From Paenibacillus dendritiformis (GTDB taxonomy: Bacteria > Bacillota > Bacilli > Paenibacillales > Paenibacillaceae), in NCBI RefSeq assembly GCF_945605565.1, contig NZ_OX216966.1, positions 5,944,001 to 6,008,000 of the forward strand: a DNA stretch of 64,000 nt, in the 5' to 3' direction. This document shows positions 1,313-58,710 of the stretch, piece by piece. The position numbers and the translations under genes are program-made. Numbering within the stretch: the first letter of the stretch is position 1; each line of letters opens with the position of its first letter. The notes under the pieces were generated by a model. It searched no databases, was not told where the DNA came from, and saw nothing but the letters and a program-made list of their open reading frames with translations.

Positions 1313-2191
1313 TTACCCTTTGATTGCGCCGATCGTCATCCCTTTGACGAAGTAGCGCTGCAGGAACGGATACAGTAGGAAGACCGGCAGATTCGCGACA
1401 ATGACGACCGCATATTTAATCGCCTGGCCGTACATGATCTGTTCGGACAGTGCCGAAGCGCCCCCGGCCATTTTATCCATCTGGTTCTGTATCAGAATTT
1501 CGCGCAGGATGAGCTGCAGCGGGAATTTGTCGCGATCGGTCAAATAAATGAGCGCGCTGAAGTACGAGTTCCAATGATCGACGCTATAGAACAGCACCAT
1601 GACCGCGATAATCGGCATCGACAGCGGAAGCATGATGCGATACAGAATCTGGAGCGTCGTGCAGCCGTCGATCATCGCCGCCTCCTGCACTTCATACGGC
1701 ACGCTCGTGCGGAAGAAGGTCCGCATGATGATGATGTTATAGACGGAGACGGCCCCCGGCAGCACGAGCGCCCACATGCTGTTCAGCAGGCCGAGCTTCT
1801 TCACGACGAGATAGGAAGGAATGAGGCCGCCGCTGAAGAACATCGTGAACACGAGCGCGAACATGATGACGTTGCGGCCGGGAAGATTGGTTCGCGACAA
1901 TGGAAACGCCGCCAATATGGTCATCAGCAGATTGATCGATGTCCCGACAACCGTATAGAGGATGGTATTGCCGTACCCCGTCAATATTTCCCGATTCTGA
2001 AAGACCTTCTGATAACCAACGAACGTAATCTCCTTCGGGAACAGCCACAGCTCGCCCCGCGACACGGCGGCGGGATTGCTGATGGACGCACTCAGCACGA
2101 AGACAAGCGGGTATAGAACGATCAGAAGAGTCATGACGAGCAGCAAACTATTGATGAAGCCGAACAGCTTATCTCCACGGGTCTCCCCCAC
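1313..2191 (-). CDS. carbohydrate ABC transporter permease (YtcP/LplC type)
   Basis: Inner-membrane permease of 292 residues, the normal length for the MalG/YtcP branch. About six hydrophobic segments are visible, starting with residues 11-35. The cytoplasmic EAA loop that docks the ATPase is at residues 170-190 (EAAMIDGCTTLQ). The start is a GTG preceded by AGGGGAGGA at good spacing. It lies 18 bases after the partner permease and 31 bases before the binding lipoprotein, so it belongs to one operon. The C-terminal FVKGMTIGAIKG is typical of the family. Confidence 0.92.
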   Translation of the reverse strand: MGETRGDKLFGFINSLLLVMTLLIVLYPLVFVLSASISNPAAVSRGELWLFPKEITFVGYQKVFQNREILTGYGNTILYTVVGTSINLLMTILAAFPLSRTNLPGRNVIMFALVFTMFFSGGLIPSYLVVKKLGLLNSMWALVLPGAVSVYNIIIMRTFFRTSVPYEVQEAAMIDGCTTLQILYRIMLPLSMPIIAVMVLFYSVDHWNSYFSALIYLTDRDKFPLQLILREILIQNQMDKMAGGASALSEQIMYGQAIKYAVVIVANLPVFLLYPFLQRYFVKGMTIGAIKG

Positions 2192-47078: not shown

Positions 47079-48062
47079 ATGTTGAAACTGAAATATTTAT
47101 TCCATGATGAGAACTTGGCGGAAATGCTTGTGAAAAATTGGGAGTACGATCCGGAATCGCTGGATATGTTTCAGTATTACCGCATCTCATCCAATGCCAT
47201 TTATCCCTTCGAATATGAAGAACAGACCCGGCTTTTGCGCTTTGCCCCAACGACGGAGAAATGCAAAACGAATATCGCCGCGGAGCTTGACTTTATTGCG
47301 TACTTGCGCGGCAACGGCTACAGAGCATTGGAACCGGTTGCCTCGTTAGGCGGGGAGGAGCTTGTCGAAGCACGCACTCCATGGGGGGACTTCTATGCCT
47401 CCGTCTTTAAGCGTGTACCCGGCGTGCAAATCAGCCAGACCGATTGCAACGACGAGATTATGTTCTGCTATGGCAAAGCGCTAGGAAAGCTCCATCAATT
47501 ATCCAGCGAGTACGTTCCTGTCACGTCCAAGCGCTGGACCTGCCACGATGTATTGGACTGGATTGAGGAGCTGTTCATCGATTCTCCACAGGAGGAAGCC
47601 GCATTGGCGGAGGCGAGATTGCTGCGGAACTACTTCGCTTCTCTTCCTGTCACCAAGAGCAATTTTGGACTCGTTCATTATGATTTTGAATACGATAACG
47701 TTTTCTATGATGAGACAACGCATTCCTGCCATGTCATCGACTTCGATGACGCGATGTATCACTGGTACGCGATGGACATCGAGCAAGCATTGGCCAGTTT
47801 GCGGGACTGTGTGTCCCCGGACAGCTTCAATGCGACAAAACAATGCTTTTTAGACGGTTACCGCTCGGAATTTGACATCTCAGATGATATGGAGGCGCTC
47901 CTGCCGGCATGCCGGCGGTTCGCCGCTCTGTACGGATATGCCCGCGTATGGCGAGCCATGGCGGAACAATGGGCGAACGAACCGGATTGGCTCGTTGAGC
48001 TGAGAGAGAACTTGAGAGGGCATCTGACAGAAGATTCGTCCTGCTTCGGGAAGGAGATCTAG
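47079..48062 (+). CDS. APH-type phosphotransferase, attenuator-linked
   Basis: Kinase of 327 residues of the aminoglycoside phosphotransferase/homoserine kinase-like superfamily. The catalytic loop is VHYDFEYDN (His200, Asp202, Asn207) and the metal motif IDFDDA begins near 220. The N-terminal lobe has TRLLRFAPTTEK and the conserved EARTPWGDFYASVFKRVPG. It lies 16 bases after the rsgA-like gene and shares its leader and attenuator. A ribosome-targeting antibiotic substrate is plausible from this context, but a metabolic substrate cannot be excluded. Confidence 0.75.
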   Translation: MLKLKYLFHDENLAEMLVKNWEYDPESLDMFQYYRISSNAIYPFEYEEQTRLLRFAPTTEKCKTNIAAELDFIAYLRGNGYRALEPVASLGGEELVEARTPWGDFYASVFKRVPGVQISQTDCNDEIMFCYGKALGKLHQLSSEYVPVTSKRWTCHDVLDWIEELFIDSPQEEAALAEARLLRNYFASLPVTKSNFGLVHYDFEYDNVFYDETTHSCHVIDFDDAMYHWYAMDIEQALASLRDCVSPDSFNATKQCFLDGYRSEFDISDDMEALLPACRRFAALYGYARVWRAMAEQWANEPDWLVELRENLRGHLTEDSSCFGKEI

Positions 48063-48168: not shown

Positions 48169-48202
48169 ATGACCATATTTCAAGCTGGGAGGCCCTGCTT
48201 TC

Positions 48203-48244
48203 ATGCACATGCACGGCATCGCATTTATTCGGCTACGCAAGTAA
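48203..48244 (+). CDS. erm leader peptide with Arg-Leu-Arg arrest motif
   Basis: Upstream ORF of 13 codons, MHMHGIAFIRLRK, with GGGAGG ten bases before the ATG. The IRLR near the C-terminus is the Arg-X-Arg (+X+) motif, known from ErmDL to stall macrolide-bound ribosomes. Its stop codon is 105 bases before the erm start. It is too short for routine gene calling. Confidence 0.85.
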   Translation: MHMHGIAFIRLRK

Positions 48245-48348
48245 AAGGTACAGAACGGTAAGCTCGTCCATTTTTTGAAGAAATGGTCCGGGTTTATTTG
48301 TGCTGTGCCTTTTTCATTGCCTAATCCGAATGAATGAGGTGCTTTTTT
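48226..48348 (+). promoter_or_regulatory. translational attenuator of erm
   Basis: ATTCGG (48227-48232), covering the Ile and first Arg codons of the leader, can pair with CCGAAT (48326-48331), just upstream of the GAGGTG ribosome-binding site (48337-48341). A second stem CCATTT/AAATGG lies around 48268-48286. Bases 48268-48354 align with 57733-57820 upstream of the rlmA(II)-like gene. A ribosome stalled on the Arg codons would open the long-range pair and expose erm. Confidence 0.75.
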
Positions 48349-49215
48349 GTGTCTAAAAACAAATATTCCCAGCGCGAAAAGTCCGGCATCGCCAACTTTT
48401 CCGCCCAACATCTATTAATCAGCAAGCGCGTGATCAACGAATTAATCGAACTGGCCCAGATTCGGCCAACCGATACGATATTGGATATTGGCGCAGGCGC
48501 GGGAGCCATTACCTTCCCGGCTGCGGAGAAAGCGGCACAGGTGCTGGCCATTGAAAGCGATCCTGCCCTCGCCGGCACAATCGAGAAGAAGATGGGGAAA
48601 GGAACCAATATCCGCATCAGACAGGCGGATATTTTGCAGACGCGCTTGCCCAAGGCTCCGTTCTCCGTCGTAGCGAATATTCCGTACTCGATCACGACAC
48701 CGATCTTCGGCAAGCTGCTTGACCAGCCGGCCGTGCCGCTGCAGCGGGCCGTGCTCATTATCGAAAAAGGGGCGGCCAAACGCTTTACCGCCGCTCCGAT
48801 TACCGATCCGCGCATTCTCGTCTGGAGAATGTGGCATGATATCCGGCTGGTGCGAACGGTGTCGCCGCAGCATTTTGCGCCGCCTCCGCGCGTTGATTCC
48901 GCGGTGGTGACGATCTGCAAGAAACCCGCCCCTGCGGTTCCCCTGAAGCATCATGCGAGGTTTCTCGCGTTGGCGTTGCATGCCCTGCAATATCCGCTTA
49001 TGCCATTCGGTGCAGCGCTATCGGAGATATTCACGTCTCCTCAGCTTGCTAAGCTGGCGCGAACGCTGGGAGCCGACCGGAATATGCCGATCAGCCATGT
49101 GCAGGAGCGGCAATGGGGAGAGCTGTTCCACGCCATGCTTCGGCATGTGGATCCTTGTCGCTGGCCGAGGATGCAGAAGAAAAATGCGCGAGGCTTACGG
49201 AATCGCAGAAAATAA
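48349..49215 (+). CDS. erm: 23S rRNA (adenine-N6)-methyltransferase, ErmD-like
   Basis: Erm methylase of 288 residues, the class that methylates A2058 and confers macrolide-lincosamide-streptogramin B resistance. Motifs: N-terminal QREKSGIANFSAQHLLISKRVI, SAM motif I DIGAGAGAIT (46-55), catalytic NIPYSITTPIF (110-120), then EKGAAKRFT, WRMWHDI and FAPPPRVDSAVV. It reads closest to Bacillus ErmD-type proteins. The GTG at 48349 is chosen because GAGGTG is seven bases before it; an ATG at 48334 would overlap the ribosome-binding site. Own promoter and leader, two terminators after. Confidence 0.92.
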   Translation: MSKNKYSQREKSGIANFSAQHLLISKRVINELIELAQIRPTDTILDIGAGAGAITFPAAEKAAQVLAIESDPALAGTIEKKMGKGTNIRIRQADILQTRLPKAPFSVVANIPYSITTPIFGKLLDQPAVPLQRAVLIIEKGAAKRFTAAPITDPRILVWRMWHDIRLVRTVSPQHFAPPPRVDSAVVTICKKPAPAVPLKHHARFLALALHALQYPLMPFGAALSEIFTSPQLAKLARTLGADRNMPISHVQERQWGELFHAMLRHVDPCRWPRMQKKNARGLRNRRK

Positions 49216-49218
49216 TTA

Positions 49219-49236
49219 ACCGCCCGTCCGGGCGGT
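49219..49236 (+). terminator. first hairpin after erm
   Basis: ACCGCCCG-TC-CGGGCGGT: an 8-bp GC stem three bases after the erm stop, with only TTTC following. The same stem recurs at 50226-50243. Confidence 0.6.
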
Positions 49237-49239
49237 TTC

Positions 49240-49275
49240 AGACTGTCGACAAAGTCCTGTCGACAGTCTTTTTTT
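49240..49275 (+). terminator. main terminator after erm
   Basis: AGACTGTCGAC (49240-49250) pairs with GTCGACAGTCT (49259-49269), a perfect 11-bp stem with an 8-base loop, then seven Ts. Confidence 0.9.
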
Positions 49276-49340
49276 CTTAGGAAGGGCGGGGCCGGGGAAG
49301 GCAGGACAGGTTAGGTTAGGGCGCAACCTGGTCCCTGCGT

Positions 49341-49424
49341 GAAGCTAGATGGTCTGCGCATGAAGCAAGATGGTCTCCGCATGAAGAAAGCTAGTCTCCG
49401 TATGAAGCAAGCTAGTCTCCGTAT
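49341..49424. repeat. 21-bp tandem repeat, four units
   Basis: Units start at 49341, 49362, 49383 and 49404, each 21 bases, sharing GAAG-N-NAGNTRGTCTSCGYAT. Units 3 and 4 differ at one base from each other; units 1 and 2 at two. No ORF with a start codon and ribosome-binding site uses it. Confidence 0.85.
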
Positions 49425-49620
49425 GAAATTGCTGCACAGGCGCAGCATTTTTAACCTCAATAGGCTAAATTCCGAGAAAATCCTGCAAAATTACATTATT
49501 TCGCCATTTTGAATGCTATTTATGCCTTGCCATGTGGTAATTGCTGTATTTTTGCAGCAATCTTATTTTCGCAACCTCGTGCCAATGAAATTGCTGCATT
49601 ATTGCAGTATTGGTGGAGCA
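49425..49620. repeat. interspersed GCTGCA-palindrome units
   Basis: Units such as ATTGCTGTATTTTTGCAGCAAT (perfect 8-base arms, near 49542-49563), TTGCTGCACAGGCGCAGCA and AATTGCTGCATTATTGCAGTA lie about 46-70 bases apart. They are of the same kind as the array at 30413-30700. Confidence 0.6.
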
Positions 49621-50002
49621 GGTGACTAGAGTGGCGGGAGATACTGCAACTTTAGTGGAGTGGGATGACTAGAGCGGCGGGATTAACGCAGCTTCTGCCT
49701 CTTTGGTGAAAAAGCCATCGGCCACCGATTTGGCGTTCAATCCATCCAGCGCGCTGAGGACAATCAATCCGTATTTGCAGCGCAGCCAATCGCTTGGTGC
49801 AGCGGATAATGATATTCTCGCGGCGGGAGAGTACGCCTGAGAAGTGGACCTCTCCGTCCCCGGCGAGCCGATCCGGCCATACGTGGAAGCCGTTGATCAC
49901 GATCGGCAAAGCCAAGGAGGCTTGCATGCCGATGTTCAGGATCAGCTGCGGCATGTGGAGAGGGTGTGCCCCTTCCGCTATTTGCGAGTTCATAGCATCT
50001 TC

Positions 50003-50137
50003 GACGATGAGATGATGGTATACGATGAGGACGAGGCGGGTCACCTCCGCCATACAGAAGAAAACAAACAGATTTATGCGCAGAGGAAAGAAACAATAGA
50101 GCGGGTTTTGCTGGAAGACCGGTCGCCCCTCTCCTAG
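50003..50137 (+). pseudogene. transposase fragment, IS1182-like C-terminal piece
   Basis: The reading frame ending at 50137 has HTEENKQIYAQRKETIERV, which resembles the end of the catalytic domain of IS1182-type transposases (xxKxxYxxRKxTIERVF with the essential Glu). The next residues (LLEDRSPLS) depart from the family and a stop follows. The frame before about 49990 gives no recognisable transposase. No terminal inverted repeats were found. Confidence 0.5.
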
Positions 50138-50180
50138 GTTCTCTTTCGTATTTGTAAAAATGGATAAAAAACGTAAAGAA

Positions 50181-50208
50181 CTCCCGCAGCTACTGTATTT
50201 CGCGGGAG
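50181..50208. terminator. bidirectional hairpin downstream of the BTAD regulator
   Basis: CTCCCGC (50181-50187) / GCGGGAG (50202-50208), with TTTGTCTT on the plus side and TTCTTTACGTTTTTT on the minus side. It lies about 77 bases past the leftward BTAD regulator stop. Confidence 0.6.
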
Positions 50209-50225
50209 TTTGTCTTCAATCTGGA

Positions 50226-50255
50226 ACCGCCCGTCCGGGCGGTTTTTCTTTTTTG
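50226..50255 (+). terminator. plus-strand terminator
   Basis: ACCGCCCG-TC-CGGGCGGT with TTTTTCTTTTTT. The stem is identical to the one after erm at 49219-49236. Confidence 0.7.
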
Positions 50256-50284
50256 GACGGTATATATCTTCAGTCGTGCATACT

Positions 50285-51430
50285 TTAAATTGCATAATTC
50301 CTTTGCCTCCATCGTTCGTACCAGGCGTAAATGCTGCGCGGGACGGCGGATTCCAGGTCCCCCTCGACTCGCGCCCTGAGCAGCCAATACTGCTCTTCTA
50401 CGCCGCCCTTATCCCCTAATTCATCGTACAGCATCATTAGGGTGAAATACGTTTCTTCCTCATCGGGAAGCTGCTGCTGAATGCGCTGGTTGACCTGAAC
50501 AGCCGCTTGCAGCCTTCCTTGCTCCACATAAAACCTGCTCAAATTTCTCGCATGCTGCAGCCATAGCTGTCGAAGCCGTTCCCTTTCGTATTCCGCCCAC
50601 AGGTACTCATAATCTCCAAGATAATTGCCCTCGAATAGCTTCAGCGCATGCTCATGCGCATCAATATGATCCGGACCGAGAGCTTTTAATTGCTTAAGCT
50701 GCCGTTCCCATTCCTCCACGTCAATCTGGACATCGCCAATCTCCAGCCGGTACCCGACCTCCAAATCTCCGTTTTGGATCGATATCGAATCCATTCCGCT
50801 ATTCTTCAGGGTTTGCCTGATTTGGTACACTGTCGCATACAACTGTTGGACGGCCCTTGACATTTCGAAGTCCGGCCACAGCAGTTCAATAAGTGTGCTT
50901 CGCTCAATCATGCGCCCGCGATGATGGAGCAAATAGGCAAACAGCTCCTGAGCTTTGCTCGTACGCCACTTGAACATCTGAGGCTCCTTGCCCGGGAGTT
51001 GGAAGCGGAGCTGATTGAAGCAGAGGATGCAGGGAGGATTTATCTCCATTTTCTTCTTTTGGCTTGTATGCAGCCGGTCTCGCAACCGCTGGACGGTTCG
51101 CCGCAGGCGCTCCAATTCAATGGGCTTCATGACATAATCCAGCGCATACAGCTCAAATGCCTTCACGGCATACCGATCATATCCCGTCACGAACACAATC
51201 TCGATGCCGGGTACGGCCGCCTTCAGTTCCTCTCCCAGCTTCAGTCCATTTAGCTCCGGCATATGGATATCAAGGAAGACAACATCGGGGCGGTGTCTCG
51301 TCATCAACTCCACCACCTGCCGCGGCTCCGAGCACATATCGACAATCTCAATGCCGCCGATATCGCTTTCCAGCATTTCCTTGAGCCCTCTCAGTGCCAA
51401 GTGCTCATCATCAACCAATACGGCTCGCAT
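50285..51430 (-). CDS. response regulator with SARP-type DNA-binding and BTAD domains
   Basis: Regulator of 381 residues. The receiver domain (1-118) has DDE at 7-9, phospho-acceptor Asp54 (VVFLDIHMPELNG) and Lys in VMKPIELERL. The middle (about 145-240) is a winged helix (ELFAYLLHHRGRMIERSTLIELLWPDFEMSRAVQQLYATVYQIR), and the rest (about 245-381) is a tetratricopeptide-like bacterial transcriptional-activation domain. This three-part form is common in Paenibacillus. No partner histidine kinase is adjacent, so it appears orphan here. Starts at ATG 51430. Confidence 0.88.
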   Translation of the reverse strand: MRAVLVDDEHLALRGLKEMLESDIGGIEIVDMCSEPRQVVELMTRHRPDVVFLDIHMPELNGLKLGEELKAAVPGIEIVFVTGYDRYAVKAFELYALDYVMKPIELERLRRTVQRLRDRLHTSQKKKMEINPPCILCFNQLRFQLPGKEPQMFKWRTSKAQELFAYLLHHRGRMIERSTLIELLWPDFEMSRAVQQLYATVYQIRQTLKNSGMDSISIQNGDLEVGYRLEIGDVQIDVEEWERQLKQLKALGPDHIDAHEHALKLFEGNYLGDYEYLWAEYERERLRQLWLQHARNLSRFYVEQGRLQAAVQVNQRIQQQLPDEEETYFTLMMLYDELGDKGGVEEQYWLLRARVEGDLESAVPRSIYAWYERWRQRNYAI

Positions 51431-51557
51431 CGGAGTCCCCTTCCTTTACACGATAGTTGATCCTTCCCGACAACACCAGGCATTTTTCCACATGATTCCC
51501 GGTGTTACTAGATTAACAACCGCACCTATACCAAACCTATACATGCCGATGTACGCC

Positions 51558-51582
51558 AAAAAACCCCTGTCACCGACAGAGG
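51558..51582 (-). terminator. terminator of the tagA-like gene
   Basis: On the minus strand CCTCTGTC / GACAGGGG (51582-51564) around GGT, followed by TTTTTT, 26 bases past the stop codon. Confidence 0.75.
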
Positions 51583-51607
51583 CTTCGAATTCAGTTGAAG
51601 GCAGGTA

Positions 51608-52345
51608 TTACAACCTTTCCTTGTAAAACAGCGCCCGCACCGCAAAGCGAGGCAAGATTAACTGTCTTCGTAATCTCGATGGCTGTTGAATGAGACGATA
51701 CAGCCATTCGGCGTGAAGCCTTTGCCAGAGCTGCGGCGCCCGCTTCACTTTCCCGGCGATAATATCGAGGCTTCCGCCGACGCCAATCGCGACCTTGGCT
51801 TGCAGAATCTCCCGATGTTTATGTATCCAATGCTCGGCATACGGCGCTCCCAGCGCGACGATTAAGAAGTCAGGCGCAGAAGAGCGGATCTCTTCCACAA
51901 TCTTCGCTTCTTCCTCCGGTTGGAAAAAGCCATGATGCCTGCCCCGAATCGCCACATTCGGATAGGTGCGGGCAATCACTTCTGCCGCTCTCCGGCTTGT
52001 CTCCTCCTCGGCCCCCAGCAGATAGAAGGACCATCCCTTCCGATTGCCGGTTTCCAGCAGCTTCAGCAGCAGGTCGCAGCCGGTCACTCTTTCCGGAAGC
52101 TGACCGCCCCGGAGCCGGGATACCATGACGATGCCGATCCTATCCGCCGTGACAAGCCCCGCCTCGTCCACGATGGAGCGCAATTGCGCATCCTGCTGAC
52201 AGGACATGACGATTTCGGGATTCCCCGTCACGACGTGGAACAGATCGGAGCGCTCCTCGGCGATGACTTCGCCAAGCGTGTACAGCGTCTCATCCATCGT
52301 CATCTTGGGGAACGATATTCCCATAATCTTGGCGACATTATCCAT
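51608..52345 (-). CDS. tagA: WecG/TagA/CpsF-family glycosyltransferase
   Basis: Glycosyltransferase of about 245 residues in the TagA/WecG family, which transfers N-acetylmannosamine to a GlcNAc-PP-undecaprenyl acceptor in teichoic acid or related wall-polymer synthesis. Motifs: VVTGNPEIVMSCQQD, DRIGIVMVSRLRGGQLPERVTGCDLL (TADG/RVTGxD), GAPYAEHWI and VGGSLDIIAGKVKRAPQ. The last includes the conserved Asp. GGAG at eight bases supports ATG 52345. No other wall genes are adjacent. Confidence 0.88.
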   Translation of the reverse strand: MDNVAKIMGISFPKMTMDETLYTLGEVIAEERSDLFHVVTGNPEIVMSCQQDAQLRSIVDEAGLVTADRIGIVMVSRLRGGQLPERVTGCDLLLKLLETGNRKGWSFYLLGAEEETSRRAAEVIARTYPNVAIRGRHHGFFQPEEEAKIVEEIRSSAPDFLIVALGAPYAEHWIHKHREILQAKVAIGVGGSLDIIAGKVKRAPQLWQRLHAEWLYRLIQQPSRLRRQLILPRFAVRALFYKERL

Positions 52346-52423
52346 GAGCGAACTCCACCTTCGACTAAGATATCCATATCGTACCATAATTCATCGCCTG
52401 GAGCCATCACCGGACCGTCCGCA

Positions 52424-52903
52424 TCAACGACTGCCTATTTTTTTGAAAAACAAGACTCTGCTCTCTCCCCGCCCGTCATAATTGGAATGAACCGACACGC
52501 CGCCCGCTTCGCTGTCGCCCGGCTCGATACGGAACCCCATTCGCGTATGGAACGCAATCGAGGTTGTATTGATGGGAGAAGTGACGCAGCGGACCGTATC
52601 GCACCCGAGTTGACATACGTTGTCTATAAATGTCTGATACAACCTTCTCGCCACTCCGTTCTTCCGCTGATCGGGATGCACGCCGATAAAATGAATGTAC
52701 GCTTCATTCGGACAAGTCTGGGACTGGAACCCGATCAGGAACCCGATAATTTCGCCATCCTGTTCCGCAATGAAGCTGGTCGGCTGGAAATGGACAAAAA
52801 ACAGCTTCGGCAGCATATCAGACATCTGCCTGCCTCCCCACCAATCATTCAGGACCGCAATCACTTCCGCATAGTCCGACGCGTTAACCGTACGAATGTT
52901 CAA
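52424..52903 (-). CDS. GNAT N-acetyltransferase
   Basis: Acetyltransferase of 159 residues with FIAEQDGEIIGFLIGF, the cofactor loop VHPDQRKNGVARRLYQTF and FHTRMGFRIEPGDSE. The frame is open for another 190 codons upstream, but AAAGGAG before the TTG at 52903 and the family N-terminus (NIRTVNASDYAEVIAVLNDWWGGRQ) decide the start; this removes an overlap with the divergent araC-like gene. Substrate unknown. Confidence 0.87.
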   Translation of the reverse strand: MNIRTVNASDYAEVIAVLNDWWGGRQMSDMLPKLFFVHFQPTSFIAEQDGEIIGFLIGFQSQTCPNEAYIHFIGVHPDQRKNGVARRLYQTFIDNVCQLGCDTVRCVTSPINTTSIAFHTRMGFRIEPGDSEAGGVSVHSNYDGRGESRVLFFKKIGSR

Positions 52904-52999
52904 TGTGCCGGCTCCTTTCGTTATAGAATTCCGTTTTTTTCTAACCCTTGCTATACTCATAACATTACATCGATAAGATAACATTTTCCAGGTGAAAAA

Positions 53000-53863
53000 A
53001 TGACGATTGCGAACCGAACAGCCCGGCCAATCTCCCCCATCCTGCACGCCATCTCCAGAACCCATTATTGGAAGGGGCATGGCGCCTTGTCCATCAAGAC
53101 GTTCCGGAACGGCCGCGCTTTTTACGAGGCGGGCCAGGGGCATTTTGCCGTGGACGACAACAGCTATCTTGTACTCAACCAAGGCCAGGAATATGCCATC
53201 ACGATAGAAGCCGAGCAGCCGGTTGAATCCTTTTCCGTCTTTTTCCCCGACTCTGTGGCAGAAGCGGTCTTGCATCATCTGACGGTGTCGGACGAGCAAC
53301 TGCTGGACGATCCCTTCTCGCCGAAGCGTGGGACCATCGAGTTCGTGCAGAGAACATACCCGCATGATCAATGGATCGCTCCCGCTCTTCGGAGGTTGCG
53401 GGCCGAGTATGCCTCCAGACAAGGCGAAGCGATGTGGCTGGAGGATAAGCTGCATGGGCTGGCACAGGCGCTCCTGCAGGTTCACCTTCAAGTCCGGCGG
53501 GACATCTCGAAGCTTCCGGCTCGGAAATCAGCGACGCGCTCAGAGCTGTACAAGCGGGTCCATACAGGCCATGATTATATGTCAGCCTATTACGATCGTC
53601 CGATTACATTAACCGACATCGCAAGGGCGGCGTGCCTGTCGCCCAACCATTTTCTCCGAAGCTACAAGCAATTGTTCGGCAGGTCTCCCCATCAATATAT
53701 TATGGAAAAGAGGCTTCAAGCAGCGAAACAGCTTCTGCTTCATACCGAGAAGTCCGTAACCGAGATTTGCCTGGAGGTCGGATGTCACAGTCCCGGTTCG
53801 TTCAGCAGCCTGTTCTCCCGGCGGTTCGGTGTTCCTCCGTCCCGGTTGCGGACAAAAAGGTGA
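53000..53863 (+). CDS. AraC-family transcriptional regulator
   Basis: Regulator of 287 residues: an N-terminal cupin-like sensing domain (about 25-110) and two C-terminal helix-turn-helix units (about 190-285) with ITLTDIARAACLSPNHFLRSYKQLFGRSPHQYIMEKRLQAAKQLL and SVTEICLEVGCHSPGSFSSLFSRRFGVPPSRLR. It is divergent from the GNAT gene, with 96 bases between the two starts, so that gene could be a target (inference). The ligand is unknown. Confidence 0.9.
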   Translation: MTIANRTARPISPILHAISRTHYWKGHGALSIKTFRNGRAFYEAGQGHFAVDDNSYLVLNQGQEYAITIEAEQPVESFSVFFPDSVAEAVLHHLTVSDEQLLDDPFSPKRGTIEFVQRTYPHDQWIAPALRRLRAEYASRQGEAMWLEDKLHGLAQALLQVHLQVRRDISKLPARKSATRSELYKRVHTGHDYMSAYYDRPITLTDIARAACLSPNHFLRSYKQLFGRSPHQYIMEKRLQAAKQLLLHTEKSVTEICLEVGCHSPGSFSSLFSRRFGVPPSRLRTKR

Positions 53864-53964
53864 TTTTCAAGAAGCGCATCCCCTTGGATTCGGCTATCGT
53901 AAAGATCGCAGCATCACGAGAACATAACTCGATAACTCGAGAGAAAGAGAACGGAGGATGCCAA

Positions 53965-54471
53965 GTGATCGAAGAGGTATGTAAAGCGGCGCAGGCGGGC
54001 GACGCATCGCGGCTGTCCGCCCTTCTGGAAGCGAATCCGCAGCTCGCCAATGAAGAGAACGGAGACGGGCTTCTTCCATTGGGAATTGCGGCCCATTGCG
54101 GCCGCGTCGATGTGGTCCGGACGCTATTGGACCGAGGTGCCGATGTCAATGCCCTGTCCTGCTCCGCCATATCCATCATCCCGTCCAACACTGCATTGCA
54201 TGCCGCGATTGCAGGAGCCCGGGACCGGGAGGTCATCCAATTGCTTCTGGAGCGCGGCGCGAACCCCGCTTTGCTCGACAGCAACGGTCATACTTGCCTG
54301 CATGTGGCGGTTCTGCACGACGACGGCATCGAATTGATTCGTCTGTTGCTGGACCATGGAGCCGACGCCAACGCCCGAGCAGAGGGCGGCGACACCGCCT
54401 TGTCGCTTGCCCTGGCGCAAGGGCATCGGCATACAGCCGAGTTCCTGCGCCGGAACGGGGCCAAGGCGTAG
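53965..54471 (+). CDS. ankyrin-repeat protein
   Basis: Soluble protein of 168 residues made of about four ankyrin repeats (GDGLLPLGIAAHCGRVDVVRTLLDRGADVNA, NTALHAAIAGARDREVIQLLLERGANP, HTCLHVAVLHDDGIELIRLLLDHGADANA, GDTALSLALAQGHRHTAEFL). It likely mediates protein binding. The GTG at 53965 has CGGAGG eight bases before it. No signal peptide. It ends before a strong bidirectional terminator. Confidence 0.88.
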   Translation: MIEEVCKAAQAGDASRLSALLEANPQLANEENGDGLLPLGIAAHCGRVDVVRTLLDRGADVNALSCSAISIIPSNTALHAAIAGARDREVIQLLLERGANPALLDSNGHTCLHVAVLHDDGIELIRLLLDHGADANARAEGGDTALSLALAQGHRHTAEFLRRNGAKA

Positions 54472-54527
54472 GCAGGCCACAGACTCTGCCTGGAGGGGAA
54501 GTGAGGATAGACGCGCCACTAAATGAA

Positions 54528-54558
54528 GAAAGGACAGCGATTCAGCCGCTGTCCTTTC
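54528..54558. terminator. bidirectional terminator between ankyrin and APH genes
   Basis: GAAAGGACAGCG (54528-54539) pairs with CGCTGTCCTTTC (54547-54558), a perfect 12-bp stem with a 7-base loop, between convergent genes. Confidence 0.85.
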
Positions 54559-54586
54559 TCATGTCTCACCCTAAGCAGTACGCCTG

Positions 54587-55318
54587 TTACGCTGAGTGCT
54601 CTATGAAACTCGTGAAATCCGCCAGACGATCCGCATCAACATCCTGTCTTCCATACGCGTCAAGAAACCGCTCATGATACCGGTCTGTCTTCAGATTATA
54701 GCGAAGCGTCCACAATCCCCAGTACAGATCGAAATGTCTGTCGCCGACTCCGCCATTCCCCACATCGATAAACGATCGAAATGAGAAGCGATCCAGAATC
54801 ACATTCGGCAGGCAATAATCCCCGTGAATCAAGACATCATCGCTGGTGAAATTCTCCAAGCGATGCACAAGTCCGGGATCGATCCCCTTGTCGATCGCTT
54901 CCTCCAGCATCTCTGCCGTCCGGTGCGGATAAGGACAGCCGTCTACCGGAAGCGAATGCAGCATCCGCAGCGATTCGCCGAAGACAGCCGCCAATCTGTC
55001 CGGCTGTTCAAGATGCACGGCCTCGGCGCCATCCTGCCCTTCCACGGCCTCGGTCAGCAGATAATCCCGCTCCCCGTCCGATTCATACGCAATGACGTCT
55101 GGCGCGAGGCCAAGACCGTGCATGAACCGCGTCATCCGGCATTCCCGTTCCAGACTGCCGCCGGCGCATATTTTAAGGAACGCGTGCTCCGCCCCCTCTA
55201 CGAACAAGGTCTTCGCCGCTTCCGAACAGCTGCTGTCATAGATAGTTGCCTGTTCAAGATACGGCCGCATGGCGCCCGGCACCGTCCCGAAATCAAAAGT
55301 TATTTCCGTTCTCTTCAT
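54587..55318 (-). CDS. aminoglycoside phosphotransferase APH(3')-like
   Basis: Kinase of about 243 residues of the APH family. The catalytic loop is LIHGDYCLPNVILD (HGDxxxxN), followed by IDVGNGGVGDRHFDLYWGLWTL, which resembles the DxGRxGxADRxxDL of aminoglycoside 3'-phosphotransferases. The ATP-binding lobe has AFLKICAGG. The ATG at 55318 has AGGAGG upstream. It is shorter than plasmid APH(3') (about 264) but has their layout, so aminoglycoside phosphorylation is plausible but unproven. Confidence 0.8.
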   Translation of the reverse strand: MKRTEITFDFGTVPGAMRPYLEQATIYDSSCSEAAKTLFVEGAEHAFLKICAGGSLERECRMTRFMHGLGLAPDVIAYESDGERDYLLTEAVEGQDGAEAVHLEQPDRLAAVFGESLRMLHSLPVDGCPYPHRTAEMLEEAIDKGIDPGLVHRLENFTSDDVLIHGDYCLPNVILDRFSFRSFIDVGNGGVGDRHFDLYWGLWTLRYNLKTDRYHERFLDAYGRQDVDADRLADFTSFIEHSA

Positions 55319-55358
55319 TTCTTTTCCTCCTGCCGCCAAAGACGCTCCCCCTGCCCGC

Positions 55359-56060
55359 TTACGCTCTCCGGGACAGCTTCAGCATCGTATCCGCATTCTT
55401 CTGGAAGCGATACGGAACGCGCACCTCTTCCGCGTCCCACCCTTGGCTGTCCATATATTCGAGCAGCGGTCCGGCATGCTCATACTTGCGGTTCGACAAG
55501 TCCGCCAGCGGGAAAATGCGAATCTCTTCGCGCGTCACCCGCATCAGCTCGCGAATCGTCCGCACATGAAAATCATAATCCAGCCGATCCGCATACATGA
55601 ACAGGAAATGGGCCGACAAGGTAATGTCGAAGGCCTCGTCCGGGAACGGCAGCTCGGGCAGCACGGCCGGCACATAGCGCTCCGGGGCCTGCTTCATGTC
55701 TGCCGCGCAATCGCGCAGCGCCTGTATTCGAGTCCGCTTCAATCCGGCTACCGATTGATATTCGTCCCAGATGTAGTTCGCTTGCGCCTTCTCCATATGC
55801 TCCATCGCATGCTCAATATCCTGCAGTCCTTTGCGTTCCAGCTCTTCCGCCGCATAATAGTAAGCGATATCGGCTGCCGTCACATCCACCCCATGCCGGC
55901 TGGCGACAGCCGTGAAGGAGCATGCCCCGGACGGACAATCCAATATCCGCTTCCCCGCCATCTGCTCCGCCGACAGATCGAACATCTTCACATACTCTTC
56001 GAACGTCCTTCCAATAAACACGATCCGGCTCAAATCCAGCTTTACCTCCGCTTGACTCAT
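55359..56060 (-). CDS. class I SAM-dependent methyltransferase
   Basis: Methyltransferase of 233 residues. SAM motif I reads RILDCPSGACSFTAVAS with GVDVTAADIAYYY as motif II and LPELPFPDEAFDITLSAHFLFMYADRL as motif IV. The N-terminus (RIVFIGRTFEEYVKMFDL) is shared with a small group of uncharacterised Bacillota proteins. The substrate is unknown. It is 40 bases from the APH gene and may be co-transcribed. Confidence 0.8.
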   Translation of the reverse strand: MSQAEVKLDLSRIVFIGRTFEEYVKMFDLSAEQMAGKRILDCPSGACSFTAVASRHGVDVTAADIAYYYAAEELERKGLQDIEHAMEHMEKAQANYIWDEYQSVAGLKRTRIQALRDCAADMKQAPERYVPAVLPELPFPDEAFDITLSAHFLFMYADRLDYDFHVRTIRELMRVTREEIRIFPLADLSNRKYEHAGPLLEYMDSQGWDAEEVRVPYRFQKNADTMLKLSRRA

Positions 56061-56127
56061 CTCTGCTCAGCTCACCTTTCTCCGCTAAATAATAATTCAC
56101 TCGCATTGTACCATATGGTGGAGAATT

Positions 56128-57072
56128 TTACTGCATATCCGCCTGCCTCGCAGACGGCTTGCCGCCCGGTCTGCGGGGATCGGAGGTGGCCAGGTATACC
56201 CCGGCCAGGACGACAGCCATCCCTGCGGCTTGCTCCCAGGTGACGGTGCTGCCATAGACGGCTACGGACATCAGCGTCGCCACGATCGGCGTCAGGTTCA
56301 AGTACATGCTGGCCATGTTCCCGCCCAACACCTCTACCCCTTTATTGAAAATAAGATATCCGATCAGCGTCCCGCCGACAATCATATAGATCATCTCCGC
56401 CCAGCTCTGGGCCGACATCGCCGCTGCCCGTTCCCAGCCTCCTTCGAACAGCGTCCCGGCCGCAAGCAGGACGGAGCCCGACAGCATCATGACCGCATTT
56501 GCGGGCAATGCGGGAACACCTTGAAGGATCGATTTGCCTGTCAGGCCATACAGAACCCCGCACACTAGGGCCGCCATGAACAGCAGATCCCCGTAATTCA
56601 AGCGCAGCGAGAGGAGCGCCGAGACGGAGCCGTTCACGATGACGGCAATGACACCGACGAGCGACAGCGCCACACCGAGTCCGGCGCGCGGATTCCACGC
56701 CTCCTTGCGGAGGAGGACGGAGCCGAGCAGGGTGAAGGCTGGCATCGCCGCAATAATGAGCGCCCCATTGGTCGCAGACGTATATTTCAACGCGGTGAAG
56801 AACAAGGCGTTATAGCCAAATATGCCGACCGCGCCGATAAAAAGCAGCCCCTTCCAGCGGCTTGCGATCTCGGACCAACGCCATTCCTTCCGCACCGTCA
56901 CGACGAGCGCAAGGAGAAGCCCGGCGATGCCGAAGCGGATTGTCGCCGCGACAAGCGGGGGAATTTCCGTAATGACATGCTTGGCCGTCGCGAACGCGCC
57001 TCCCCAAAATAAAGGTACGAGCAGCATCAGCCAATACATCACTTTCGGTTTCGTTCCGTCCTCTTTTCCCAT
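56128..57072 (-). CDS. EamA/DMT-family transporter
   Basis: Ten-helix drug/metabolite transporter of 314 residues with two EamA halves (about 10-145 and 155-305). Typical bits are PLFWGGAFATAKHVI, PPLVAATIRFGIAG, KYTSATNGALIIAAMPAFTLLG and the second-half GVEVLGGNMASMYLNLTPIVATLMSV. It lies 89 bases after the ArsR gene, and the region between carries a copy of the ArsR operator. Probably an exporter under ArsR control; substrate unknown. Confidence 0.87.
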   Translation of the reverse strand: MGKEDGTKPKVMYWLMLLVPLFWGGAFATAKHVITEIPPLVAATIRFGIAGLLLALVVTVRKEWRWSEIASRWKGLLFIGAVGIFGYNALFFTALKYTSATNGALIIAAMPAFTLLGSVLLRKEAWNPRAGLGVALSLVGVIAVIVNGSVSALLSLRLNYGDLLFMAALVCGVLYGLTGKSILQGVPALPANAVMMLSGSVLLAAGTLFEGGWERAAAMSAQSWAEMIYMIVGGTLIGYLIFNKGVEVLGGNMASMYLNLTPIVATLMSVAVYGSTVTWEQAAGMAVVLAGVYLATSDPRRPGGKPSARQADMQ

Positions 57073-57120
57073 CCTGGTTTCACATCTCCCATGTTCGATT
57101 CATTTTCGCTATATGTTTAT

Positions 57121-57142
57121 ATGTTTAAAATCTTAAACCTAC
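57121..57142. promoter_or_regulatory. ArsR operator upstream of the EamA gene
   Basis: A 22-base sequence starting ATGTTTAAAA and ending TTAAACCTAC, an imperfect dyad (GTTTAA/TTAAAC). Its reverse complement lies at 57496-57517, upstream of the arsR-like gene; 20 of 22 bases agree. Confidence 0.75.
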
Positions 57143-57161
57143 GAGTCAAAAAAAGAACAAA

Positions 57162-57482
57162 TTAACAATCCGACTCGATCGCCAAGCACAGATCTTTAAT
57201 TTGCTTCAGGAACTCCCTCGAGCTCAACGCATAATATTTTTCATTTCCTTGCTTGTCGAACCCAATCAGTCCGGCCTGTCTCAATATTTTCAAATGATGG
57301 GACACGGCGGGCCGCGACAGCTCCATTCTCTCTGTAATCTGGTTCACATTCAAGCGTCCCTGTTCCAGCAGCAGCATAATGATCTGCTGGCGGTTCTCGT
57401 CCCCCAGCGCCTGAAAAATCGGCGTCGCCAAGCGGAACTTCTCCAATACAAGCTCCTTGTTCGTGCATCCGGAAGCTTCCAT
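57162..57482 (-). CDS. ArsR-family transcriptional regulator
   Basis: Winged-helix regulator of about 106 residues with IFQALGDENRQQIIMLLLEQGRLNVNQITERMELSRPAVSHHLKILRQAGLI and a beta wing ending YYALSSREFLKQI. No CxC metal motif at helix 3, so it is probably not a metal sensor. Two Cys (residues 6 and 106) may matter for redox sensing. ATG 57482 fits AAGGG spacing better than GTG 57491. Matching operators before itself and the EamA gene support autoregulation and control of export. Confidence 0.87.
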   Translation of the reverse strand: MEASGCTNKELVLEKFRLATPIFQALGDENRQQIIMLLLEQGRLNVNQITERMELSRPAVSHHLKILRQAGLIGFDKQGNEKYYALSSREFLKQIKDLCLAIESDC

Positions 57483-57495
57483 ATGATTCACCCTT

Positions 57496-57517
57496 GTAGG
57501 TTTAAACTTTTAAACAT
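57496..57517. promoter_or_regulatory. ArsR operator upstream of the arsR-like gene
   Basis: A 22-base sequence starting GTAGGTTTAA and ending TTTTAAACAT, the inverse of the 57121-57142 operator. It lies 14 bases upstream of the ATG at 57482. Confidence 0.75.
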
Positions 57518-57610
57518 AGATCATTATCTTCGAATCATCTCCTCGTGTCAAGCCATCCCTTGCCTGCGTCCGTCCGGGAAGGCCGCCCGAGCATATGTGT
57601 GCAAGCCTTA

Positions 57611-57619
57611 TGTTATAAT
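57611..57619 (+). promoter_or_regulatory. extended -10 promoter of the rlmA(II)-like gene
   Basis: TGTTATAAT, an extended -10 (TGN plus TATAAT). No good -35 is visible. It lies 63 bases before the leader peptide. Confidence 0.55.
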
Positions 57620-57675
57620 AAAACTTGTCAGGAGCCTGATGGCCCTGCCTATGAGAATGTTCAGAGAGGGTGCTC

Positions 57676-57813
57676 CCATTCATGATCCATTACATTCGGT
57701 TGCGTTAATGAGAGGTGCGGATGAAGGCTCAGCCATTTTTTTGAGTAATGGCCTGGGTTTATTTTTCTGCGCCTTTTTTCATTCACCAATCCGAATGAAT
57801 GGGGTGTTTTTGC
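57676..57813 (+). promoter_or_regulatory. translational attenuator of the rlmA(II)-like gene
   Basis: CATTCGG (57693-57699), within the leader Ile-Arg codons, pairs with CCGAATG (57791-57797); CCCATTC (57676-57682) pairs with the adjacent GAATGGG (57797-57803), which covers the GGGG ribosome-binding site. Together they make a 13-14 bp long-range stem with the leader start as a bulge. Bases 57733-57820 align with the erm leader at 48268-48354. Confidence 0.75.
57682..57708 (+). CDS. leader peptide of the rlmA(II)-like gene, with Arg-Leu-Arg
   Basis: An 8-codon ORF, MIHYIRLR, with GAGAGGG about 11 bases before the ATG. It ends in IRLR, as the erm leader does before its last Lys. Its stop is 105 bases before the main start codon, the same as at erm. 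Confidence 0.8.
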   Translation: MIHYIRLR

Positions 57814-58710
57814 ATGTCTATCTATGGCAAAAAACAGATGAGTATCCGTCTCCTAACCGAATATGAAGCGATGCTGGCCTGCCCGATCTGCTCCGGCCCG
57901 ATACAAGTGATGCAGGCGGCGAACACAGGCAGCTTGCGCTGTTCTCGCGGGCATTGCTTCGATATCGCCAAGCAGGGGTATGTGAACCTGCTTCCGCATC
58001 CTCCGCGCGGCGCTTACGGCAAGTCGATGTTCGAAGCCCGCAGGAGAGTAAGCGCCAGCGGCTTTTTTGAACCGCTGCTGGAGCGGATCAGCGGCCGAAT
58101 CTCCCGGGAGCTCGCCTTCGATGCGAAGCCGCCGCATCTGTTGGATGCAGGCTGCGGGGAAGGCTCTGCTTTAGCCCGCATTGTGGACCAAGTTCACGAA
58201 CGCGCTAGGACCAAGCTGTTGGGCGCAGGCGTCGACATTTCCAAGGAAGCGATCCGCATCGCGGCAAGAGAGTCATCCCGGGCGATATGGTGCGTCGCCG
58301 ATCTGGCGCGGTGCCCGTTCGCCGATCGGACATTCGGCTTCATCCTGAACCTGTTGTCTCCGTCGAACTATGCTGAGTTCCGCCGGCTGCTCACCGATAA
58401 CGGGATGGTCATTAAAGTGATTCCGGGCAGCGCCTATTTGCGTGAGCTCAGGGAGGTGCTGTACCGGCAGACGGACAGGCAGCACTACGATAATGAGCGC
58501 ACGGCCGCGCTATTTTTCCGACATTTTCATCTGTTGGAGGCCGAGTCGGTGCAGTATCGTCTCCCGGCAGCCCCTACATTCCTGGCGGATGCGATCCGCA
58601 TGACGCCCTTGTCCTGGGGCGCTTCGGAAGAGCGAATCCGTCAGGCGCTGCGCATGGAGGCCACCGAGATTACCGCGGACTTCACGATCCTGTACGGGAT
58701 GAAAAAATAA
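57814..58710 (+). CDS. 23S rRNA (guanine-N1)-methyltransferase RlmA(II)/TlrB-like
   Basis: Methyltransferase of 298 residues of the RlmA family, which modify G745 (RlmA-I) or G748 (RlmA-II/TlrB). An N-terminal zinc finger has Cys23, Cys26 (CPIC), Cys43 and His47 (CSRGH), followed by IAKQGYVNLL. SAM motif LLDAGCGEGSALARIV follows, with GVDISKEAIRIAA and LNLLSPSNYAEFRRLL. Gram-positive members mostly act at G748, and TlrB acts with an Erm-type methylase in tylosin resistance. The ATG at 57814 has GGGGTG seven bases before it. Own promoter, leader and terminator. Confidence 0.88.
   Translation: MSIYGKKQMSIRLLTEYEAMLACPICSGPIQVMQAANTGSLRCSRGHCFDIAKQGYVNLLPHPPRGAYGKSMFEARRRVSASGFFEPLLERISGRISRELAFDAKPPHLLDAGCGEGSALARIVDQVHERARTKLLGAGVDISKEAIRIAARESSRAIWCVADLARCPFADRTFGFILNLLSPSNYAEFRRLLTDNGMVIKVIPGSAYLRELREVLYRQTDRQHYDNERTAALFFRHFHLLEAESVQYRLPAAPTFLADAIRMTPLSWGASEERIRQALRMEATEITADFTILYGMKK

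Follow-up and report, generated by a model that had tools for sequence, protein, structure and literature searches.

Copies of one RNA leader, a probable macrolide attenuator of the tlrB type, precede erm and an rlmA(II)-like gene in Paenibacillus dendritiformis

Introduction

The tlrB gene (yxjB) of Bacillus subtilis is preceded by a tylosin attenuator that has been studied experimentally (Yakhnin et al. 2019, PMC6851288). In that paper the leader peptide is MIIQFIRYR and ribosomes stall at its RYR motif with tylosin; tylosin is an inducer of the leader, erythromycin is not. In B. subtilis exposed to tylosin, a transcriptional fusion went up only about 2-fold, whereas expression of the translational fusion was almost fully drug-dependent (Table 1 of the same paper). 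The paper also aligns 180 predicted leader peptides from upstream of tlrB homologues in Gram-positive organisms, describes the attenuator as a control of a single gene, and states that in the tylosin producer Streptomyces fradiae the modifications made by RlmA(II) (at G748) and TlrD (at A2058) are synergistic against tylosin. Here we describe copies of one RNA leader before two unrelated 23S rRNA methyltransferase genes, erm and an rlmA(II)-like gene (hereafter rlmA), of Paenibacillus dendritiformis. The window analysed is a stretch of 64,000 nucleotides (nt), positions 5944001-6008000 of a 6.72-Mb one-contig genome (NZ_OX216966.1).

Leader peptides of the MRLR type (MTHSMRLR, MTASMRLR) occur before erm(K), erm(D), mef(E) and msr(A), and transcription attenuation is reported at erm(K) and mef(E) (PMC4335068). 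The same paper gives the mef(E) and erm(K) regions as 327 and 354 bases long, without discernible mutual homology. A survey of erm upstream regions (PMC11264731) mentions neither Paenibacillus nor RlmA in its main text. In the openly licensed PMC literature, no paper was found that describes one RNA leader common to the kinds of gene considered below.

Results

Two unrelated methyltransferase genes share a leader

The first-pass annotation of the window had proposed that the sequences upstream of the two genes align almost throughout. Pairwise comparison confirmed this. In a blastn search of the own genome the erm leader matched only itself and the rlmA leader, the latter with 80% identity over 94 nt (E 7.3e-16). 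The statement that both upstream open reading frames (uORFs) end in IRLR holds for rlmA; the erm uORF ends in IRLR-K. The equal spacing that had also been noted is real, with 8 nt between the last RLR base and the GG of a terminator-like stem (T1) in both leaders. Since the distance is conserved despite the extra lysine of the erm uORF, it is the RLR codons, rather than the stop codon, from which the spacing is kept.

The two products differ in kind. The Erm protein scores above its NCBIfam cut-off (NF000499, 214.4 bits versus 212). The rlmA product matches PF21302 (Zn_ribbon_RlmA) with 50.5 bits (cut-off 27) and also gives methyltransferase matches; its best NCBIfam match, NF008300, is at 165.8, below the cut-off of 303, and Erm32, MyrA and ChrB are weaker. 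That its target would be G748 follows from what PMC6851288 says on Gram-positive RlmA(II). These results supported the presence of one homologous leader, with an RLR stall-type motif, on two unrelated rRNA methylase genes.

For a covariance model (R2) we used 24 rlmA leaders from other genera, with no erm leader and no leader of the own genus; the structure of R2 was carried over from an alignment (A2, see below) that contains erm leaders. In a scan of the whole own genome, in which 150 of 1060 first-look candidates were scored and model E-values are rough, the sense-strand matches were the rlmA leader (E 1.5e-25) and the erm leader (96.3 bits, E 7.7e-20). Beyond these, only antisense mirrors of the same two places appeared at E up to 10. 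The covariance check advocated in the first-pass annotation thus recovered both window leaders genome-wide. R2 also found the leader in 12/12 Erm loci (L043-L054) and in 19/19 loci (L101-L119) that had been picked by R1, a covariance model trained on all 45 leaders of A2; in a second Erm group (L055-L070) it matched none of 16 loci at E up to 1. Rfam 15 gave no match in the window at gathering score. In seven related loci, at E up to 0.1, the Rfam matches were purine riboswitches (L149, L154) and a single miRNA that fell short of its gathering score. The R2 matches in L149 and L154 (uORF MIIQFIRYR, purine riboswitch nearby) look like Bacillus tlrB.

A common fold with compensatory base changes

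Alignment A2 comprises 45 leaders, chosen for their position before rlmA or erm (plus L008), and is hence uninformative on gene choice, a question on which the R1 and R2 matches do bear. Single-sequence minimum free energy (MFE) folding produced one long hairpin in all 45, each fold having at least 5 of the 7 outer pairs of the terminator stem and at least 2 bases of the Shine-Dalgarno (SD) sequence paired into the uORF. This hairpin combines an outer stem, GGTACAG/CTGTGCC, followed by a U run, with a long-range helix between uORF codons and the stretch preceding the SD. The mean fold z over the 45 leaders was -6.1 for the whole leader and -5.7 for the stem region. In the window, T1 shows 7/7 outer pairs in the MFE folds of both leaders (stem-region z -6.6 for erm). 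The predicted uORF partners of the erm SD region are ATTCGG (48227-48232), CATT (48222-48225) and GCATC (48216-48220), which would hide the SD; those of the rlmA SD region are CATTCGG (57693-57699) and ATCCATT (57685-57691). At one pair both window leaders carry CGG/CCG, in contrast to the CGT/ACG of most leaders in A2. Two readings made by eye were given up: an inner AACCC/GGGTT hairpin as the terminator, replaced by the outer stem and long-range helix seen in 45/45 MFE folds, and TTCATT/AATGAA as a local SD hairpin, a local pairing found in 0/45.

Pair counts on A2 showed 93.8% of cells paired, T1 being the best-kept helix at 98.7%. Both-sided changes numbered 17 versus 4.3 in shuffles, and none of 500 shuffles was as high. 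When the structure was slid along the alignment, paired cells fell to 35.5-50.7% and both-sided changes ranged from 3 to 18. A larger set of 127 leaders, from which L008 (a duplicate of L102) and L109 (leader-like, see below) were left out, gave 118 both-sided changes, where 300 shuffles averaged 36 and reached at most 49. These changes include two inside the uORF codons themselves: pair 31/147 goes from C-G to A-U, and pair 30/148 from U-A to G-C. A regular expression for RXR-stop matched 121/127 leaders, and both helices were present in the MFE fold of all 121 (the other 6 were unscored). The T-rich GGGTTTATTT stretch contains TTATTT in 109/127 leaders; by its rough position relative to the NusG pause of PMC6851288, GGGTTTATTT is a candidate RNA polymerase pause region.

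The leader accompanies macrolide-resistance genes across the Bacilli

The rlmA and Erm proteins were each searched in 295 genomes of the family. Inspection by eye showed the leader before many rlmA homologues and in each of the 12 Erm loci that were fetched (L043-L054, 49-64% identity), and another kind of upstream region in the second Erm group, L055-L070. A further search with the Erm protein added three distant loci (40-42% identity), none with an R2 leader. R1 matched in 102/295 family genomes. The 150 matches listed, minus 37 antisense mirrors, represent 113 places; among the matches listed, 80 places lie before rlmA, 14 before erm and 19 before other genes, 18 of the latter being relatives of macrolide-resistance genes and one (L109) unclear. 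Alpha/beta hydrolases follow 8 of these 19 leaders, Mef-like pumps of the major facilitator superfamily 9 (one behind an erm remnant) and an Mph-like kinase 1. The two hydrolases that were scored, L104 and L105, reached 480 and 477 with the macrolide esterase model NF052610 (cut-off 420), and L104 is near EstT of PDB 11tu (E 5e-132). The kinase scored 320 bits to MphC (cut-off 550) and had a PDB Mph match; the three Mef-like pumps scored were all below exception cut-offs. Locus L101 (G193) has the leader, a short erm remnant and then a Mef-like gene. At L109 (G012, 1947-2104, minus strand) a leader-like RNA with IRLR and no clear start codon stands upstream of an O-methyltransferase-like gene; it is perhaps a remnant.

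In the class, R2 matched in 57/398 genomes and 21/146 genera (E up to 1e-4). We examined 65 copies among the listed sense places, 64 of them from outside the family and 1 from within it, and tblastn assigned a macrolide-resistance relative within 1.3 kb of 63: 33 RlmA, 11 esterase, 11 Mph, 7 Erm and 1 weak Mef-like (24% identity), with none for 2. Some downstream frames are short (e.g., L145, L152). This RNA also stands before erm in further families of Bacilli. Blastn revealed plasmid copies before a hydrolase in Bacillus arachidis (NZ_CP127373.1, L195; R2-confirmed) and before a putative RNA methyltransferase on two Priestia plasmids (the P. megaterium copy NZ_CP071469.1, L196, R2-confirmed); all three plasmids are typed mobilizable in PLSDB. 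Further copies, which the first-pass annotation had advised seeking in Paenibacillus genomes, were found in family and class, and its candidate macrolide regulon controlled by RNA only gained support in a wider form, taking in esterase, Mph-like and Mef-like genes besides RlmA and Erm. At L180 (G651:C9:35223-35361), a uORF MCCIAFMRLR and a partial leader precede a membrane-protein frame resembling part of an ABC-2 transporter, a possible further target or remnant.

Pairing of the A2058 and G748 enzymes, which the first-pass annotation had thought biologically sensible, recurs. Among the matches listed, 9/14 family genomes with a leader-erm also have a leader-rlmA (Fisher p 0.003, kinship uncorrected). 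Close linkage among these nine was found only in the own genome G000 (9.5 kb) and in G015 (7.9 kb). In L156 (G334) the leader (287-440; uORF ending GIYFIRIR) is followed in a row by erm (434-1312, 292 aa) and rlmA (1300-2187, 295 aa), whose frames overlap slightly, so that the A2058 and G748 enzymes stand behind a single leader. Pieces of erm lie between leader and rlmA in L150 and L162, and another short stretch in L146.

Leader phylogeny and leader peptides

A quick tree of the 127 leaders (158 columns) left 63/122 inner branches open, deep branches being poorly supported. Leaders cluster by gene: 8 labels require 10 changes (least possible 7, shuffled mean 61.7) and the five main gene labels alone 6. 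A branch with an SH-aLRT (an approximate likelihood-ratio branch test) of 95 separates all 19 esterase leaders from the rest, and a set of 35 rows (SH-aLRT 96) holds 21 of the 24 leaders then labelled Erm together with all 12 Mph leaders; L053, L167 and L169 fall elsewhere. Because of this clustering, the leader seems, from sequence comparison, to have moved from one gene family to another on a few occasions and thereafter to have stayed with its gene. Labels need care at four loci: L146, L150 and L162 count as Erm in the similarity comparison and tree and as RlmA in peptide counts, and L155 was labelled RlmA by hand and by tblastn, blastp giving none.

The window erm leader is nearest to other erm leaders on the tree. 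Its whole-leader identity is 0.77-0.78 to erm leaders of other genera versus at most 0.736 to any rlmA leader. The local duplication envisaged in the first-pass annotation does not agree with this, and a recent local copy before erm was rejected on the identities and the tree.

An R/K-x-R/K motif ends the uORF in 121/125 leaders with an assigned gene. The peptides differ by gene: exactly MII[KQ]FIRLR is encoded by 17/19 esterase leaders, 21/63 RlmA leaders and 0/33 Erm and Mph leaders; MIIQFIRYR, identical to the B. subtilis tlrB peptide, is found in 10/63 rlmA leaders; GIAFMRLR ends the uORF in 10/12 Mph leaders, and IAF is held by 11/21 Erm leaders. Some mef-like genes (L113, L116, L119) have THSMRLR uORFs. 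These differences before R-X-R could be a drug-spectrum code, or simply ancestry.

Features and surroundings of the window leaders

Table 1. Features of the erm and rlmA leaders (window coordinates; SD, Shine-Dalgarno sequence)
Feature	Position	Strand	Details and basis
Candidate SD of erm uORF, GGGAGG	48187-48192	+	sequence
erm leader uORF, MHMHGIAFIRLRK and stop	48203-48244	+	sequence, translation
Predicted stall, erm uORF	P-site Leu codon 48233-48235; A-site Arg codon 48236-48238	+	toeprint analogy, PMC6851288
erm terminator-like stem T1	48247-48309	+	arm GGTACAG 48247-48253, inner hairpin, arm CTGTGCC 48303-48309
GGGTTTATTT, T-rich conserved stretch, erm leader	48290-48299	+	near-invariant alignment columns
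U run 3' of erm T1	48310-48314	+	
CCGAATGAAT plus SD AGGTG (48337-48341), erm leader	48326-48341	+	folds, pair counts
erm, 23S rRNA adenine methyltransferase	48349-49215	+	likely GTG start 48349; PF00398; NF000499
rlmA leader uORF, MIHYIRLR and stop	57682-57708	+	sequence, translation
Predicted stall, rlmA uORF	P-site Leu 57700-57702; A-site Arg 57703-57705	+	
rlmA terminator-like stem T1	57714-57773	+	arm GGTGCGG 57714-57720, inner hairpin, arm CTGCGCC 57767-57773
GGGTTTATTT, same conserved stretch, rlmA leader	57755-57764	+	
U run 3' of rlmA T1	57774-57779	+	
CCGAATG plus SD GGGGTG (57801-57806), rlmA leader	57791-57806	+	folds, pair counts
rlmA(II)-like, 23S rRNA guanine methyltransferase	57814-58710	+	likely ATG start 57814; PF21302

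An APH-family phosphotransferase-like gene (window 47079-48062) ends about 140 nt before the erm uORF on the same strand, and a gene for an ArsR-type regulator (57162-57491) is divergent from the rlmA leader. Outside the window, the genome has a second erm (G000:C1:4219218-4220039, L197), 50% identical, with no R2 match in the genome scan. Upstream of it and of many of L055-L070 there is a different common pattern, GCTCTGC..GGTCTGCCCATTTT, and some upstream regions of this type have a hairpin of the ACAGGCA..TGCCTGT kind with a T run. The pattern is perhaps a different attenuator.

Discussion

Sequence comparison establishes the homology of the leaders, their conserved parts, the compensatory base changes and the association with macrolide-resistance genes. 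We consider it highly probable that the leaders of both window genes belong to a single RNA family and are macrolide-responsive dual attenuators of the kind studied at B. subtilis tlrB, working as follows; stalling, termination, pausing, induction and co-induction of both genes by the same drug are what we infer. With no drug, the uORF would be translated to its end, and the GGTACAG/CTGTGCC stem with its U run would terminate transcription; in transcripts that read through, the uORF codons would fold onto the surroundings of the SD, making the ribosome-binding site inaccessible. In the presence of drug, a ribosome with bound macrolide would stall at R-L-R. There it would cover the foot of the terminator stem on its 5' side, which lies 8 nt downstream, as well as the strand that the uORF contributes to the SD-hiding helix. 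The terminator being blocked and the SD freed, the resistance gene would be transcribed and translated. Erm (at A2058) and RlmA (at G748) would then modify the ribosome, and the stall should end.

Several observations weigh against this interpretation. On the 127 leaders 87.2% of cells pair versus 82.9% in shuffles, so that most structural support comes from the both-sided changes, and the shuffles leave sequence relatedness in place. Unpaired cells on A2 reach 10/45 at pair 33/145 and 9/45 at pair 30/148. RNAalifold alone on A2 gave the outer terminator stem only; the evidence for the long-range helix lies in folds of individual sequences and in pair counts on a structure of our own specification. 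The erm uORF has its single extra lysine after RLR, and consensus scans of both leaders gave no plus-strand promoter at threshold and no plus-strand terminator (scan limited to loops of 3-8). Finally, 17/97 listed rlmA genomes are without a leader match, the rlmA and erm lists behind the genome counts being the stronger rows of the protein searches.

The mechanism might be the same at both genes and the drugs different, rlmA sensing 16-membered, tylosin-like macrolides and erm others, a parallel wiring without co-induction. We hold this to be possible, if rather doubtful: the tlrB leader does not respond to erythromycin (PMC6851288), the residues that precede R-X-R are not the same (most RlmA and esterase leaders have MIHY or MII[KQ]F, and 11/21 Erm and 10/12 Mph leaders have IAF) and one clade holds most Erm and all Mph leaders, yet both window uORFs have IRLR and L156 has both enzymes behind one leader. 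It is unlikely that control is mainly by translational attenuation or mRNA protection with a minor or inactive terminator stem, as the contrast between the two B. subtilis fusions (about 2-fold against almost full drug dependence with tylosin; Table 1 of PMC6851288) could suggest; T1, with 98.7% of its cells paired, is the best-kept helix, a U run follows it, and the stem-region mean z is -5.7.

Two further explanations would strip the resemblance of its regulatory meaning or its common origin. A recent local duplication of the rlmA leader before erm is very improbable: the genes are indeed 9.5 kb apart, local blastn identity is 80% and both leaders share CGG/CCG, but the own erm leader is closest to erm leaders of other genera, by identity and on the tree, and erm leaders of the same RNA exist in other families of Bacilli. 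We give scarcely more credence to convergence, by which any macrolide-responsive uORF with a terminator would come to look like these leaders. Leader peptides of the MRLR type are indeed found at erm(K), erm(D), mef(E) and msr(A), and for the mef(E) and erm(K) RNAs PMC4335068 notes no homology other than the peptide; here, however, the similarity reaches past the functional motifs, the R2 match to the erm leader stands at E 7.7e-20 genome-wide, and none of the 16 loci of the second erm group is matched at E up to 1.

A bolder picture may be put forward tentatively, as one that we ourselves find less probable than not: a portable macrolide-sensor cassette, gained a few times by unrelated resistance genes of Bacilli (RlmA, Erm, esterase, Mph, Mef-like), would form a regulon of RNA only, the residues before R-X-R tuning each copy to the drugs of its gene. 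The peptides would typically be MII[KQ]F-IR[LYF]R before RlmA and macrolide esterases and [CG]IAF-[IM]R[LI]R before Erm and Mph. A family spanning five kinds of gene would allow one sequence model to predict inducible macrolide-resistance genes in Bacilli, mobilizable plasmids included. It would also offer a natural series of leader peptides for learning which nascent-chain residues decide which macrolide stalls the ribosome, and an example of a regulon wired by RNA copies alone, with no protein regulator.

Among known systems, S. fradiae has the same pair of modifications (G748, A2058; PMC6851288); in the window, what links the two genes is a leader RNA present in one copy before each. With ErmC/ErmB-type translational attenuators the leader would share the release of the erm SD by a drug-stalled ribosome on a uORF; unlike them, it has the uORF strand itself as the predicted SD-hider, a terminator-like stem in between and, in 45/45 MFE folds, one long hairpin. 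With erm(K)/erm(D) of Bacillus licheniformis and mef(E)/msr(A) it has in common an MRLR-type stall peptide and transcription attenuation, the latter predicted here and reported for erm(K) and mef(E) in PMC4335068. The closest relative is tlrB. Like its leader, those of the window have a short uORF ending in R/K-X-R/K (followed by one extra lysine in the erm copy), a predicted intrinsic terminator just 3' that overlaps the footprint of the stalled ribosome, 8 nt from RLR in both, a predicted SD-sequestering hairpin that includes the RXR codons and shows compensatory changes, and a T-rich stretch roughly in the NusG-pause region; homology to other tlrB leaders is indicated by R2, trained on rlmA leaders. 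An RlmA(II) gene lies downstream in one case (57814-58710) and not in the erm copy. The window rlmA leader, which shares its anatomy with the studied tlrB leader, is therefore a member of that known system. Unlike tlrB, the same RNA here also stands before erm, esterase, mph-like and mef-like genes, and its peptides vary. What is new is the reach of the tlrB-type RNA, which is found before genes for RlmA, Erm, macrolide esterases, Mph-like kinases and Mef-like pumps.

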